From Syntrophaceae bacterium (GTDB taxonomy: Bacteria; Desulfobacterota; BSN033; UBA1163): 43,738 nt of DNA. The translations under genes and the position numbers were made by a program. The DNA lies in assembly GCA_013388645.1 (NCBI GenBank), contig JACAEV010000139.1:1-43738 (forward strand), read 5' to 3'. This document shows positions 35,535-40,912 of this stretch, piece after piece; positions within the stretch are counted from its first letter, which is position 1; each line of letters opens with the position of its first letter. The notes under the pieces were generated by a model. It saw only the letters and a list, made by a program, of their open reading frames with translations, ran no database searches and was not told the origin of the DNA.

Positions 35535-37154
35535 TTGGGATTTTATTCTGATCTAAAAATGTATGGTCGTTTCATGTGGGGGTTAAGAGGGTTTCTAAAA
35601 CATACTCTGACTCTCGAAGAAGCCAAAGCGATTATTATGAAGCGGATGGAAGAAAGAGAAACCAACTTCCTCCGGATGGTGAGAAAAGGTATCTTCGGAT
35701 TTCCCAAAAGTCCCTATCTTCCTCTGATGAAGTTGGCACAATGCGAGATGGGTGATATCGAAAACATGGTAAAGGCCAAAGGGTTGGAAGGGACACTTCA
35801 TGCTCTGCGGGAAGCAGGCGTCTATGTCACCTTTGAAGAGTTTAAGGGGCGAGAGCCGATCATTCGAGATGGAAAGCTGTTCCCTGTCAAAGATCACGAT
35901 TTCGATAACCCCTATCTTCATTGCTACTACTATTCTAAATCAGGTGGAACAACGGGTGCCGGGACACGGGTGGCGACAGACCTGGATCACTTAAGTGACC
36001 AAACCCCACGTATGATGATTGCTTATGATGCCCATGGGGTCTTAGACTCGCCAACCGCTTTTTGGTATGGGATCCTCCCTGACCAAACAGGTATCAACAA
36101 TAACCTTCGTCACGCCCTTTCAGGTCGGGTTGCAAAAAAATGGTTCTCCCCCATCACCAAAGAAGACTAGCGGCCATCTCTGAAGAACCGCCTTGCTACT
36201 CAGTATATTGTTAAAATTTCGAATTGGGTGGGTGTCCCCATTCCGAAGCCTGAACCGGTACCCTTGAGTCAAGCCATTAAGATTGCCCGCTGGGCAGCAA
36301 AAACCCTTGAGACTAAAAACACCTGTCTCATCCGGACCCATGTCAGTTTAGCCGTACGAATTTGTATCGCTGCGAGAGAGGAAGGATTGAAATTAACAGG
36401 AGCAACTTTTATGGGGGGAGGGGAGCCCCCAACGCCTGCAAAAATTGCTCATATTACCCACATCGGTGCACGATGGATACCCACTTATTTCTTCACAGAA
36501 GTAGGAGCTGTTGGCATCGGTTGTGCTCAGCCATTCGACGAAAACGATCTTCACTTTTTCAAGGATGCTTTTGCCTTGATTCAATTGCCTTCTCCGGTTC
36601 CAGGTTCTAATATCGTTGTAGATGCTTTTTGCTTCACCACTTTACTTCCTTCGGCACCCAAAATCATGTTGAATGTGGCAATTGATGACTATGGCATGAT
36701 TGAGAGACGGACCTGCCACTGTCCTTTGGAGGGTTATGGGTTCACGGAACACTTGTGTCATGTTCGAAGTTTTCACAAGTTAACTGGGGAGGGGGTGACT
36801 TTAGTCGGAAGCGAGATGCTTCATATTCTTGAAGAAGTCCTTCCGGCCCGATTCGGTGGAAGTCCTCTCAATTATCAACTTTTGGAAGAAGAGGATGAGC
36901 AAGGTTTTACACGGTTAAGTCTCTTAGTGAGCCCGAGCTTAGGTGCCATTGATGAGGAGGCTCTGATCAGTACAGTCATGGAAAGTCTGAAACAGAGCAG
37001 TGTCGCAGCTGACCTGGCACGGGCGATTTGGAATCAGGCCAAAATCTTAAGAGTGAAGCGAATGGAACCCCTCTGGACGCTCCGGGGCAAATTGATGCCC
37101 CTTCATTTAACAAAGGGTCAAAAACTCCCGATCGAGAAAGGAGAGAAAAAATGA
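35535..37154 (+). pseudogene. PaaK/LuxE-like adenylating enzyme, copy 2, interrupted by one in-frame TAG
   Basis: One continuous frame of 539 codons parallels copy 1 from end to end, with a single TAG at 36168-36170 (codon 212) in the middle. The part before it (35535-36170) carries KSGGTTGAGTRV, and the part after it (open from 36171; first later start at 36228) carries GGGEPPTPAKI, FFTEVGAVGIGC and the C-terminal domain. In copy 1 the same place reads D-I-K-P; here D-stop-R-P. There is no frame change and no other defect, so the mutation is recent or the stop is read through. The 5' third is nearly identical in DNA to copy 1. Start is TTG at 35535 after AAAAGGAA. The end overlaps the next gene as ATGA. 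Confidence 0.75.
36168..36170 (+). other. In-frame amber codon within copy 2 of the adenylating enzyme
   Basis: TAG at codon 212, surrounded by well-conserved coding sequence in the same frame on both sides. TAG also ends several normal genes here (hdrC, flxD, the last phosphodiesterase), so it is a standard stop in this genome. Confidence 0.8.
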
Positions 37155-38188
37155 TGTTCCATCTTCGGAAAGGTTTTTTTTGCTTTCTTTTGGTGTTGAG
37201 TTTAATTTTACCAAGCCATATCGTTTTCGCCCGTGAAAAAACCTCATCAGAACCTGTCAGGTTGAAAGTACTTCTACTACCATTTCTCTCCTATGCCCCA
37301 TTCTTTATTGCCCAGGAAGAAGGATTCTTTGCTGAGCAACAGCTTCAAATCGAATTTGTCCAGATGAGCAGTTCTGCCGCCGCTATTCCTCCCCTGGCCC
37401 AGGGAGACTTGGATATTGTTGCCGGAACCCTCCGGATCAGCACCCTCAATGCCATTATTCGTGAAGGGAAGATTAAATTTGTCTCTGATAAAGGACACAT
37501 TGGAGCAGGAGGTTGTACTTACTATGGTATTATCGCAAGACAAGCTTTGGTTGAAGCTGGGGATTTGAAAAATCCTTCTCAGCTAAAAGGGAAAAAAATT
37601 TGTCTCGCTTCAGGGTTTGCAACTTCAGAAGGTTATTTCGTAGAGAAACTGCTCAACCGGGGAGGGGTGAAACTGAATGAAGTGGAGATTCAAGAACATA
37701 TTCCTTTCACGGCCGAGCTGGAGGCTTTTAAAAAAGGGACAATCGATCTCACCGTTGGAGGGGAACCCAAGCTGACTCGAATGGTGGAGTCTAAACATGG
37801 GGTTCTCTGGATGCCCGTACAGGAAATCGTCCCGGATTTTCAATTTGATGTCATAGCCTATGGCCCTTCGATTCTTCAAAAAAATCGTGAGGCCGGGAGA
37901 CGATTCATCGTCGCTTATTTAAAGGCAGTTAGGCAATACCATCAAGGGAAGAGCGGAAGAAATTTAGGCATTCTGAGAAAGTATACAAACTTGGACACTG
38001 AATTTCTGAAGAAAATTTGCTGGCCTTCAATACGCATTGACGGTAGCATCAACGCGAAGAGCGTCCTCGATTTTCAAGATTGGTCTATCAAAAAGGGACT
38101 GCTTGACAGACCAGCAACTGAAAATCAGTTCTGGGACCCCAGTTTCATTGAAGATGCGAACAAGATACTGAGCTCCGTATCGAAATAA
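37151..38188 (+). CDS. ABC transporter substrate-binding protein, NMT1/SsuA-like
   Basis: A 345-residue exported binding protein. The N-terminus has a basic start and a hydrophobic core (FFCFLLVLSLILPSHIVFA) with likely cleavage after AFA-type residues near position 27. There is no lipobox cysteine. The mature part follows the NMT1/SsuA/TauA pattern: LLPFLSYAPFFIAQEEGFFA, then GDLDIVAG, then LKGKKICLASGFATSEGY. Such proteins capture sulfonates, nitrate, taurine, pyrimidines or aromatic acids for uptake; the ligand is not readable. The start ATG at 37151 overlaps the adenylating-enzyme stop and has AAAGGAGAG upstream. The ABC ATPase and permease follow after a methyltransferase and a remnant second binding protein. 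Confidence 0.85.
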   Translation: MMFHLRKGFFCFLLVLSLILPSHIVFAREKTSSEPVRLKVLLLPFLSYAPFFIAQEEGFFAEQQLQIEFVQMSSSAAAIPPLAQGDLDIVAGTLRISTLNAIIREGKIKFVSDKGHIGAGGCTYYGIIARQALVEAGDLKNPSQLKGKKICLASGFATSEGYFVEKLLNRGGVKLNEVEIQEHIPFTAELEAFKKGTIDLTVGGEPKLTRMVESKHGVLWMPVQEIVPDFQFDVIAYGPSILQKNREAGRRFIVAYLKAVRQYHQGKSGRNLGILRKYTNLDTEFLKKICWPSIRIDGSINAKSVLDFQDWSIKKGLLDRPATENQFWDPSFIEDANKILSSVSK

Positions 38189-38219: not shown

Positions 38220-38948
38220 TTGAAAGGGACGTATGGGAAGAAAGTGTCGGAGTATCAAACAATGTCGGACTTTGATATCTTATCGAAAGAATATAATTTT
38301 TTCACGCAGACACTCGGACAGGTGGTTTATGAAGAGACATTGAATTTTCTTCCGCACTCGACTCAGCTGGCTCTGGATGCTGGATGTGGTGGAGGACTCC
38401 TTTCCCTGAAGTTGGCGGACCATGTCGATCACGTGATCGGGTTAGATTTATCTGGATCGATGATTGCATTGGCCAAGGAGCATCAAATCCAGATGGGCAA
38501 AAAGAATATCCATTTTTTAAAAGCCGATCTTGAAAATCTTCCTTTCCTAAGGGAAACTTTCGACTTCGTAGTCAGTAAGGCGACGCTTCACCATACCCGG
38601 TTGGAGGTCACCTTGCCCGGTCTTCGACAACTGGTCAGGCCAGGAGGGAGAATGGTAGTTTTTGACCAGATCACCTCAACCCCTCACTTGGATAAATATC
38701 CAATATGGCATATGATCAGATCACTCAAAAAAGCCACCTCTATTCTTCGTTCTCATGGATTTCGCACCATGTGGCGTATTCTCTCATTTCAGCTAAGTCC
38801 TCAATGGATTCGACATGTATGTAAACATAAGCTTTTAACAGGAGACTCTTTTGAAAATATCTATTCTCGATTTCTTCCAGGGTGCAGGTTTAAAAGATAC
38901 CCCTGGAGAATGATCGCCTTTTGGGAAGCTCCGGTAATAAGCAAATAA
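38220..38948 (+). CDS. Class I SAM-dependent methyltransferase
   Basis: A protein of up to 242 residues with the SAM-binding motif LALDAGCGGGLLSLKLA (around 50-66), the acidic motif VIGLDLSGSMI, and VSKATLHHTRLE plus LVRPGGRMVVFD as in UbiE/Methyltransf_11 enzymes. It methylates a small molecule, unknown here. The frame opens with a TTG at 38220; a GTG at 38244 or the ATG at 38262 are equally possible starts, since no Shine-Dalgarno is decisive. It is inserted between the binding protein and the ABC ATPase/permease genes, which suggests that it serves the same compound, or that this locus was rearranged. Confidence 0.82.
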   Translation: MKGTYGKKVSEYQTMSDFDILSKEYNFFTQTLGQVVYEETLNFLPHSTQLALDAGCGGGLLSLKLADHVDHVIGLDLSGSMIALAKEHQIQMGKKNIHFLKADLENLPFLRETFDFVVSKATLHHTRLEVTLPGLRQLVRPGGRMVVFDQITSTPHLDKYPIWHMIRSLKKATSILRSHGFRTMWRILSFQLSPQWIRHVCKHKLLTGDSFENIYSRFLPGCRFKRYPWRMIAFWEAPVISK

Positions 38949-39340
38949 GTCGGCCTGCTTTTCATGACCATGGTCAGATGAATATTGAGAGCATCGTTGA
39001 CTATCAGTCGTGGGGCCTGCAAAAGGAGAGCTTTGAAAAAATCAAAAAGTAGAATCGAGAGACCTCATTCCAAAATTTACGAATGCGGTCATTTCATGTA
39101 TGGATGATGATCGGCGATACTGAAAATGAATGAATTTCAGGACATTGGAGAGGAGGGCCATACATTTAAAAAGATATCCGCTCGAACGTTTTTCCATCAG
39201 TCCTCTCCCTTCTCGGGAATTTAAGAACTTTTTCAGAGATCTCAAAAGGATTTCTTAATAAGGTGGTTCCCCCATGCCAGTTCTGGGAACCAGGTTTCAT
39301 CGAATATGCCAACAAGGTTTTAGGTGGATCAAAGAGATGA
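38949..39340 (+). pseudogene. Remnant of a second NMT1/SsuA-like binding protein, split by an insertion
   Basis: Two pieces match the C-terminus of the intact binding protein at 37151-38188. The first (to 39027) reads HGQMNIESIVDYQSWGLQK, parallel to DGSINAKSVLDFQDWSIKK. The second (39245-39340) reads KGFLNKVVPPCQFWEPGFIE then YANKVLGGSKR, parallel to KGLLDRPATENQFWDPSFIE then DANKILSS. The two would be adjacent in an intact gene; ~215 unrelated bases lie between. Joining them also needs one more A. The rest of the gene (N-terminal ~80%) is missing. Its TGA overlaps the ATPase start as ATGA, showing that the ABC operon once had its own binding protein here. Confidence 0.72.
39028..39242. mobile_element. 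MITE-like insertion with 8-base target duplication
   Basis: The ~215 bases that split the binding-protein remnant are flanked by the direct repeat CAAAAGGA (39020-39027 and 39243-39250). The element starts GAGCTTTGAAAAAAT, and its other end read in reverse is (A)GATCTCTGAAAAAGT, an imperfect inverted repeat matching at 12 of 15 positions. It carries no transposase; a 67-codon minus-strand frame inside (39042-39245) has no recognisable domain. This is the profile of a non-autonomous element (MITE) or a decayed IS end pair. No second copy is seen in the window. Confidence 0.6.
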
Positions 39341-40122
39341 ATTCAGTGAGTAATTTGGGACTGACGTGTCAAGGCCTCTGTAAAACTTATCAGACGAAGA
39401 ACGGCCTGATCTCCGCAATTAAGGACGTTAGCTTCTGTGTAAAAGAGCATGAATTTATCTGTATTGTTGGGCCCAGCGGGTGCGGCAAGACCACGCTCCT
39501 GAAACTCATTGCCGGACTTCTACACCCCACTTCGGGACAAATCTTTTTTAGTCAGGATCCGCAAGATGGTATTCCCAGAAGCGCTCTGGTCTTCCAGGAG
39601 CACGGCCTTTTCCCCTGGATGACCGTGCTGGATAACGTGGCTTTTGGGTTAGAGATGAGGGTGAAAGATAAAAAAGAACGGAGGGATCTTTCACGCCCCC
39701 TGATCGAAAAAATGGGTCTATTAGCATTCACCAACAATTATCCCCATGAACTCTCCATGGGAATGCGTCAACGGGTGGGAATTGCTCGTGCTTTTGTCTC
39801 CAAAGCTCAAATTCTGTTGATGGATGAACCGCTTGGCTCCCTGGATGCTCAGACCAAATTGATCCTCCAGGAGGAACTCCTAAAGATATGGAAAGAAGAC
39901 CAAAAGTGTGTCGTTTATATTACCCACGATATCGAAGAAGCCATCTTCTTAGGGGATCGCTTGCTGGTGATGACGGCCCGACCCGGACATATTCGGGAAG
40001 AAATAGTTATCCCTTTTGACCGCCCTCGTGATCTATCCATAAAAGAACTGACCGAATTTGCAAAAATGAAAGGCCATATCTGGAGGATTCTGGAGGAGGA
40101 GGTACGAAAAAGCTGTGGATGA
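39337..40122 (+). CDS. ABC transporter ATPase, nitrate/sulfonate/taurine type
   Basis: A 261-residue ATPase of the SsuB/TauB/NrtD group that powers uptake with the permease encoded next. Walker A is GPSGCGKT (45-52), the Q-loop Q87 in VFQEHGLFPW, the signature LSMGMRQRVGIARA (139-152), Walker B ILLMDEPLGSLD (D163-E164) and the switch H197 in THDIEEA. The signature has Met where Gly is usual (LSGGM), a mild change. The frame is open from 39274, but those first codons are the leftover binding-protein tail in another frame. The ATG at 39337 overlaps that gene stop and is the natural start. Confidence 0.92.
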   Translation: MNSVSNLGLTCQGLCKTYQTKNGLISAIKDVSFCVKEHEFICIVGPSGCGKTTLLKLIAGLLHPTSGQIFFSQDPQDGIPRSALVFQEHGLFPWMTVLDNVAFGLEMRVKDKKERRDLSRPLIEKMGLLAFTNNYPHELSMGMRQRVGIARAFVSKAQILLMDEPLGSLDAQTKLILQEELLKIWKEDQKCVVYITHDIEEAIFLGDRLLVMTARPGHIREEIVIPFDRPRDLSIKELTEFAKMKGHIWRILEEEVRKSCG

Positions 40123-40912
40123 CCTGACGGGAAAAAAACAACGCTTTCTTGGGTTGATGCGGGAGGGATGGTTCACGGTATTTATCATCCTTTTAATCGC
40201 CATCGCCTGGGAATGGGGAGTTTCTGTGGGCTGGGTGTCTTTCCTTTTCTTTCCGCCCCCCTCCGTTATTATTTCAACTTTTATTAAACTCATCGCCAAT
40301 CATAAACTGACGGATAATACAGGAATCACCTTGTGGCGTGTCTTTCTGGGTCTCATCTTAGGCGGAATACCTGGCCTCATCCTTGGGCTGATCTTGGGTT
40401 GGTCACATCGACTGTATCGTCTCGTCAACCCTTTGATTGCAGCCACTCATCCAATCCCTAAGATCGCTATACTTCCCTTAATTATGATCATCTTCGGAAT
40501 TGGTGAATCTTCGAAAGTGGTCGTGATTGCCTTGACAGCCTTCTTCCCTCTGCTCATCAATACGGCAGCAGGTGTTCAGCAGATCAATCCAATCCATTTT
40601 GAAGTCGCTAAAAATTATGGGGCCAACCTGACAAAAATATTTACACGTGTCATCTTTCCCGGGAGTTTACCACTGATCCTGACAGGTTTGCGTCTCTCTC
40701 TTAATCTCGCCCTTCTCGTCTCTATTGCCGTGGAGTTAGTATCAGCTCAGAAAGGTTTAGGAGCGATGATCTGGCTGGCATGGCAGACTCTCCGTACGGA
40801 GGAACTCTATGTCAGTCTGGTCATGACCGCCCTGCTGGGCGTCTTCTTCAATTTCTTTCTCCAGCGTATAGCCATCCATCTCGTCCCCTGGAAAACTGAG
40901 CAAAGAATTTAA
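40115..40912 (+). CDS. ABC transporter permease, nitrate/sulfonate/taurine type
   Basis: A 265-residue integral membrane protein of the SsuC/TauC group with about six helices (first at ~18-36). The EAA loop that docks to the ATPase is seen as VAKNYGANLTKIFTRVIFPG (~168-187), preceded by the PKIAILPLIMIIFGIG segment typical of the family. It starts with GTG at 40115, overlapping the ATPase stop by 8 bases, after a GGAGGAGGAGG stretch. It forms the importer with the ATPase and the binding protein at 37151. The transported compound is unknown. Confidence 0.92.
   Translation: MDDLTGKKQRFLGLMREGWFTVFIILLIAIAWEWGVSVGWVSFLFFPPPSVIISTFIKLIANHKLTDNTGITLWRVFLGLILGGIPGLILGLILGWSHRLYRLVNPLIAATHPIPKIAILPLIMIIFGIGESSKVVVIALTAFFPLLINTAAGVQQINPIHFEVAKNYGANLTKIFTRVIFPGSLPLILTGLRLSLNLALLVSIAVELVSAQKGLGAMIWLAWQTLRTEELYVSLVMTALLGVFFNFFLQRIAIHLVPWKTEQRI

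Follow-up and report, generated by a model that had tools for sequence, protein, structure and literature searches.

The window analyzed here is the whole 43,738-nt stretch of contig JACAEV010000139.1 from a Syntrophaceae bacterium. Close to its end, a short non-coding element interrupts the remnant of a gene for a substrate-binding protein, at the start of the ATPase and permease genes of an ATP-binding cassette (ABC) transporter. The element is very probably a miniature inverted-repeat transposable element (MITE) of a promoter-targeting family, which generates a 5-bp duplication and usually has an end 11 bp from a -35 hexamer. The locus contains the following features:

39026..39243, no strand assigned: MITE-like element of 218 bp without recognised coding capacity, identified by a second copy, a homologue in genome G152, and the family termini and 5-bp duplication
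39026..39040, + strand: left terminal inverted repeat, GAGAGCTTTGAAAAA
39229..39243, - strand: right terminal inverted repeat, read on this strand as GAGATCTCTGAAAAA
39021..39025, no strand assigned: left copy of the target-site duplication AAAAG
39244..39248, no strand assigned: right copy of the target-site duplication AAAAG
38951..39025, + strand: binding-protein pseudogene, part 5' of the insert (RPAFHDHGQMNIESIVDYQSWGLQK), identified by protein comparison
39245..39340, + strand: binding-protein pseudogene, part 3' of the insert (KGFLNKVVPPCQFWEPGFIEYANKVLGGSKR and stop codon), overlapping the ATPase start
37151..38188, + strand: intact NMT1/THI5-like substrate-binding protein, apparently a paralogue of the remnant
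38220..38948, + strand: methyltransferase gene, located 3' of the intact binding-protein gene and 5' of the remnant
39337..40122, + strand: ABC transporter ATPase
40115..40912, + strand: ABC transporter permease

The insert is flanked by consecutive segments of a binding-protein C-terminus, ...SIVDYQSWGLQK before it and FLNKVVPPCQFWEPGFIEYANKVLGGSKR after it, and an earlier sequence-only reading had correctly described a pseudogene split by a MITE-like element. The remnant has a size of about 55 codons, and about 290 codons, most of the gene, are lost. Joining both flanks leads to different reading frames, and thus a small frame change is also present near the junction. Uninterrupted binding-protein genes were found in two relatives, on contig C45 of G004 (same genus) and contig C87 of G012 (same family). 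Both have the order ligase-like gene, one binding protein, ATPase, and permease, and in both the stop codon of the binding-protein gene overlaps the ATPase start. The earlier operon order of binding protein, ATPase, and permease, which had been read from the window, is therefore still realized in these empty-site relatives.

The sequence-only reading had matched the flanks to the intact protein encoded at 37151. Alignment confirmed that they are consecutive C-terminal parts, with 42% identity to this protein over 50 aa, but the closest matches were two binding proteins of G004, with 70% and 65% identity over 54-55 aa. Therefore, as judged from these identities, the remnant appears to be the last part of the original gene, orthologous to the binding protein of the relatives, and the protein at 37151 looks like a more distant paralogue. 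The latter shares 46% identity with the product of the G004 gene at the same position. Being a paralogue, it may plausibly have replaced the lost protein, as had been proposed.

The end of the methyltransferase gene directly adjoins the start of the remnant. G004 and G012 have no methyltransferase gene at the corresponding place, and thus the window gene may have arrived with or after the rearrangement. At 35535-37154, the window contains a ligase-like gene (no Pfam match). In G004 and G012 its counterpart is a single open reading frame (ORF) with about 500-590 aa. The window version has one in-frame TAG at 36168-36170, where G004 encodes phenylalanine, and the frame is open beyond it.

Boundaries and copies of the element

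Exact 8-base repeats, CAAAAGGA, are present at 39020-39027 and 39243-39250, and the left end and the reverse-complemented right end of the element are identical at 13 of 15 positions. The insert, the flanking repeats and the near-inverted ends were thus all verified. They had been interpreted as the footprint of a transposition with an 8-base duplication around a 215-base insert at 39028-39242. The insert is real and an insertion duplication is present, but both lengths had to be revised. Because a 5-bp duplication prevails across the family (see below), the duplication is most likely AAAAG, the element most likely spans the 218 bp listed above, and the 8-base repeat most likely consists of AAAAG and three element bases that match by chance. 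The three extra bases (C and GA) are the same as the element's own terminal bases.

A search for other copies, which had been proposed earlier, identified a second one in the same genome, on contig C149, where it sits in a different context between two unrelated ORFs. It has the same boundaries as the window copy, is 87% identical to it over 215 bp without gaps, is flanked by the perfect duplication AATTT/AATTT, and has a TTGACA 11 bp outside. Furthermore, genome G152 contains an amplified homologous element of about 224 bp, of which a continuous 200 bp reach a contig end, and the last bases were taken from other copies. Alignment of this element gave z=14 with the window copy and z=18 with the C149 copy, and it has inner motifs in common with the 218-bp type, e.g. 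ATCCGCTCGAA. Six contig-edge copies in G152 have TTGACA 11-12 bp outside. Together with the C149 copy, they show that the 218-bp type obeys the insertion rule of the family described below. The contig-edge matches in G152 initially gave the impression of a full insertion sequence (IS), but they fit elements of about 224 bp instead. At three places in G152 (L348:20-103, L349:15-60, L339:209-395), ends of the 224-bp type adjoin short-type elements in nested or tandem arrangements.

No copy of the whole 215-bp insert was found in 148 relatives, which yielded a single 31-base match only, and none of 72,556 plasmid records matched it. Viral contigs did not match three end patterns. The family was therefore detected only through its ends.

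It is exceedingly improbable that the insert is a product of chance or recombination and not mobile DNA, with coincidental repeats. The folding of the whole insert as a single strand, which was no better than that of shuffled sequences (z=0.14), would agree with such an origin. The discrete second copy, the duplications, the termini common to dozens of elements, and the amplified G152 homologue all contradict it, and the second copy together with the uninterrupted relatives excludes it for practical purposes. The sequence-only reading would have been refuted if neither another copy nor an empty-site relative existed; both were found, in its favour. The element has the hallmarks of a MITE, namely terminal inverted repeats, target-site duplications that are perfect in both the window copy and the C149 copy, and many dispersed family copies shorter than about 600 bp without a transposase gene.

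The element family and its position at promoters

The family is defined by GAGANNTCTGAAAAA termini, a 5-bp target-site duplication, and an element size of 57-224 bp. The 89 distinct paired elements analyzed here, 57-218 bp long, come from draft genomes and were chosen by their termini (GAGA...TCTC), never by their flanks; a few orthologous pairs among them were counted separately. Within the genus and family of the window's genome, the end patterns have numerous matches, with a maximum of 39 in G009, and the reversed control of the longer end pattern had zero matches. A perfect 5-bp direct repeat directly outside the ends was found in 40 of the 89 elements, compared to 0.8% of shuffled pairs, and a perfect 6-bp repeat in only two. 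Hence the direct repeats are very unlikely to be due to chance, a possibility that the sequence-only reading had itself raised. The two ends of the short elements differ slightly (GAGATTTCTGAAAAAGTCC and GAGAGCTCTGAAAAAC), and both of these end types are present in the window element.

The element lengths in G000, the genome of the window, and in G002, G004, G009, and G010 (L055-L216) cluster near 65, 90-100, 130, and 153 bp. The interiors of short elements hold GATTACACAGATT / AATCTGTGTAATC repeats in variable copy number. Apparently orthologous insertions can be of unequal length (153 bp in L087, 89 bp in L202), and thus the interior seems to gain or lose modules in place. In the short elements, end A (e.g. 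L095:1500-1527) is GAGATTTCTGAAAAAGTCCAGAAATCTC, which forms a perfect 10-bp hairpin with an 8-base loop. Exactly the same 28 bases recur in metagenome-assembled genomes (MAGs) that carry the labels Thermodesulfobacteriota, Omnitrophota, WOR-3, and Stahlbacteria; this conservation points to horizontal spread or to contamination of the MAGs. A literature search with the end sequences and inner repeats retrieved nothing relevant, and the family is apparently undescribed so far.

The promoter preference of the family is invisible from the window alone. The outward flanks of the 89 elements were inspected for a -35 box (TTGACA, at most one mismatch) at a distance of 9-12 bp from the element end. 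Such a box was present at 60 elements, i.e. at end A only in 29 cases, at end B only in 29, and at both ends in two, while 29 elements had it at neither end. The box was at offset 11 in 50 of these ends, whereas the background was about 0.007 per position and end. An exact TTGACA at this offset was observed at 38 of 178 ends, while 0.22 were expected from the other offsets. A -10 box (TATAAT, at most two mismatches) was found at 17-bp spacing in 31 of 61 cases, and other spacings yielded 3-12. The distribution has one peak only, at 11 bp. The result was reproduced with an independent second set of 39 ends from other genomes (MAGs labelled Omnitrophota, WOR-3, Stahlbacteria, and Deltaproteobacteria/Syntrophaceae, and one uncultured proteobacterium), in which an exact TTGACA stood 9-12 bp away from 22 ends, with a distance of 11 bp in 17 cases.

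For six of the element-bearing promoters, homologous promoters without an element were found in sister genomes. In G009 the element is followed by TAATA AAAGTC TTGACA, whereas G011 and G014 have TAATA AAAACC TTGACA preceded by unrelated sequence. Likewise, the G002 element is followed by AAGAA TTTATC TTGACA, whereas G001 and G004 have AAGAA TTTAAC TTGACA. In some element-free promoters the duplicated 5 bp are present as a single copy; elsewhere the -35 box and the spacer align and the 5 bp have diverged. At the L155 promoter, the element is present in both G009 and G010, and thus some insertions are old.

Targeting, retention and the transposase

We propose that the elements are non-autonomous and would be mobilised in trans by a transposase encoded elsewhere. 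Most family insertions are located just upstream of sigma70-type promoters, with either end towards the promoter, and the transposase likely recognises promoter DNA or promoter-bound RNA polymerase. The window copy represents the minority case. It interrupts the C-terminal codons that are left of the original gene of the binding protein-ATPase-permease operon, and the gene may have been damaged before or after the insertion. A promoter at the expected position is missing from both of its flanks. A hexamer that weakly resembles a -35 box, TTAATA, lies 11 bp from the window copy, but it was dismissed because promoterless elements show no excess at offset 11. The window copy is an off-target, intragenic insertion.

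Alternatively, insertion might be untargeted, and elements near -46 might be retained for an upstream activating function of their ends, e.g. through binding of the alpha subunit of RNA polymerase or of a nucleoid protein. The elements do occupy the upstream (UP) region of promoters, and the age of some insertions, like that at the L155 promoter, would be compatible with retention. However, 34 of the 40 elements with a perfect duplication, presumably the most recent insertions, are at promoters, compared to 26 of the other 49. This difference speaks more for targeted insertion than for later selection, although -35 boxes also degenerate with time. In addition, the 11-bp peak is not accompanied by others one helical turn away, the promoter can face either element end, and related promoters manage without an element. 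Retention of untargeted insertions is therefore unlikely.

Three observations weigh against promoter-targeted transposition as an explanation for the window element. First, a third of the elements, including the window copy, have no recognisable promoter. Second, the termini, the duplication length, and the insertion rule connect the 218-bp type with the short types, but the sequence of the interior does not. Third, no transposase with the family ends, and no IS of the kind that the sequence-only reading had suggested looking for, was found among the loci examined or the listed ends of these draft genomes. End pairs at IS-like distances (0.8-3.5 kb) all resembled two separate short elements or chance pairs, and a pair 848 bp apart on an Omnitrophota contig encloses an ordinary ORF. 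Because no autonomous element was found, the family is not assignable to a transposase.

One candidate source is the Mutator superfamily, of which the element could be an ISKra4- or ISLre2-type derivative that duplicated the 8 bp CAAAAGGA. The two copies of this repeat match exactly, and ISKra4-type elements, which duplicate 8-9 bp, are targeted to promoters in either orientation (PMC3942029). The ISKra4 transposase model NF033572 detected a gene in two of the 17 family genomes (G010 and G012), but not in G000 or in G009, which has many element copies; models for ISLre2 and IS256 were not searched. The prevalence of perfect 5-bp duplications across the family and the spacing of 11 bp instead of 13-17 bp also argue against a Mutator derivative, which is very unlikely. 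It is quite possible, but not probable, that a non-Mutator lineage with 5-bp duplications independently evolved promoter targeting and mobilised tiny elements across several phyla. If true, host promoters would repeatedly have received the same inverted repeats from that lineage, at about position -46, and their strength might have been altered.

Comparison with known promoter-associated elements

Promoter-targeted insertion has been described for TnGBS/ISLre2 and for the ISKra4 group, with junctions 13-17 bp away from the promoter and 8-9 bp duplications (PMC3942029). Like the family, the ISKra4 group (p-MULT 4) sits upstream of sigmaA promoters, and its members with nearly complementary inverted repeats have promoters at either end (PMC3942029). 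While targeting itself is thus alike, the family differs in its duplication of 5 bp and its spacing of 11 bp (range 9-12). TnGBS/ISLre2 (p-MULT 3) share with the family the constant distance upstream of the -35 box; however, their insertions have a single orientation, a spacing of 15-17 bp, and duplications of 8-9 bp, and they encode a transposase of their own, whereas the family uses both orientations, duplicates 5 bp, and carries no gene.

Correia elements are also short and non-coding, have terminal inverted repeats, and occur in many copies near gene starts. In the part of a review on prokaryotic MITEs considered here (PMC10969869), promoters are described as being carried inside the element, as in Correia, and the arrangement of the family is not described. 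The family instead adjoins promoters of the host, which are element-free in sister genomes.

The family looks like a new promoter-targeting variant. It represents a natural insertion library that bears on whether promoter DNA or RNA polymerase is recognised, and its simple signature, a TTGACA 11 bp outside GAGANNTCTGAAAAA, could serve to mark real promoters in uncultured genomes. The literature found on promoter-targeted transposition in bacteria documents only two branches of one transposase superfamily. The family would add a further case, with another duplication length and spacing, with both orientations, and in lineages that are known mostly from metagenomes.
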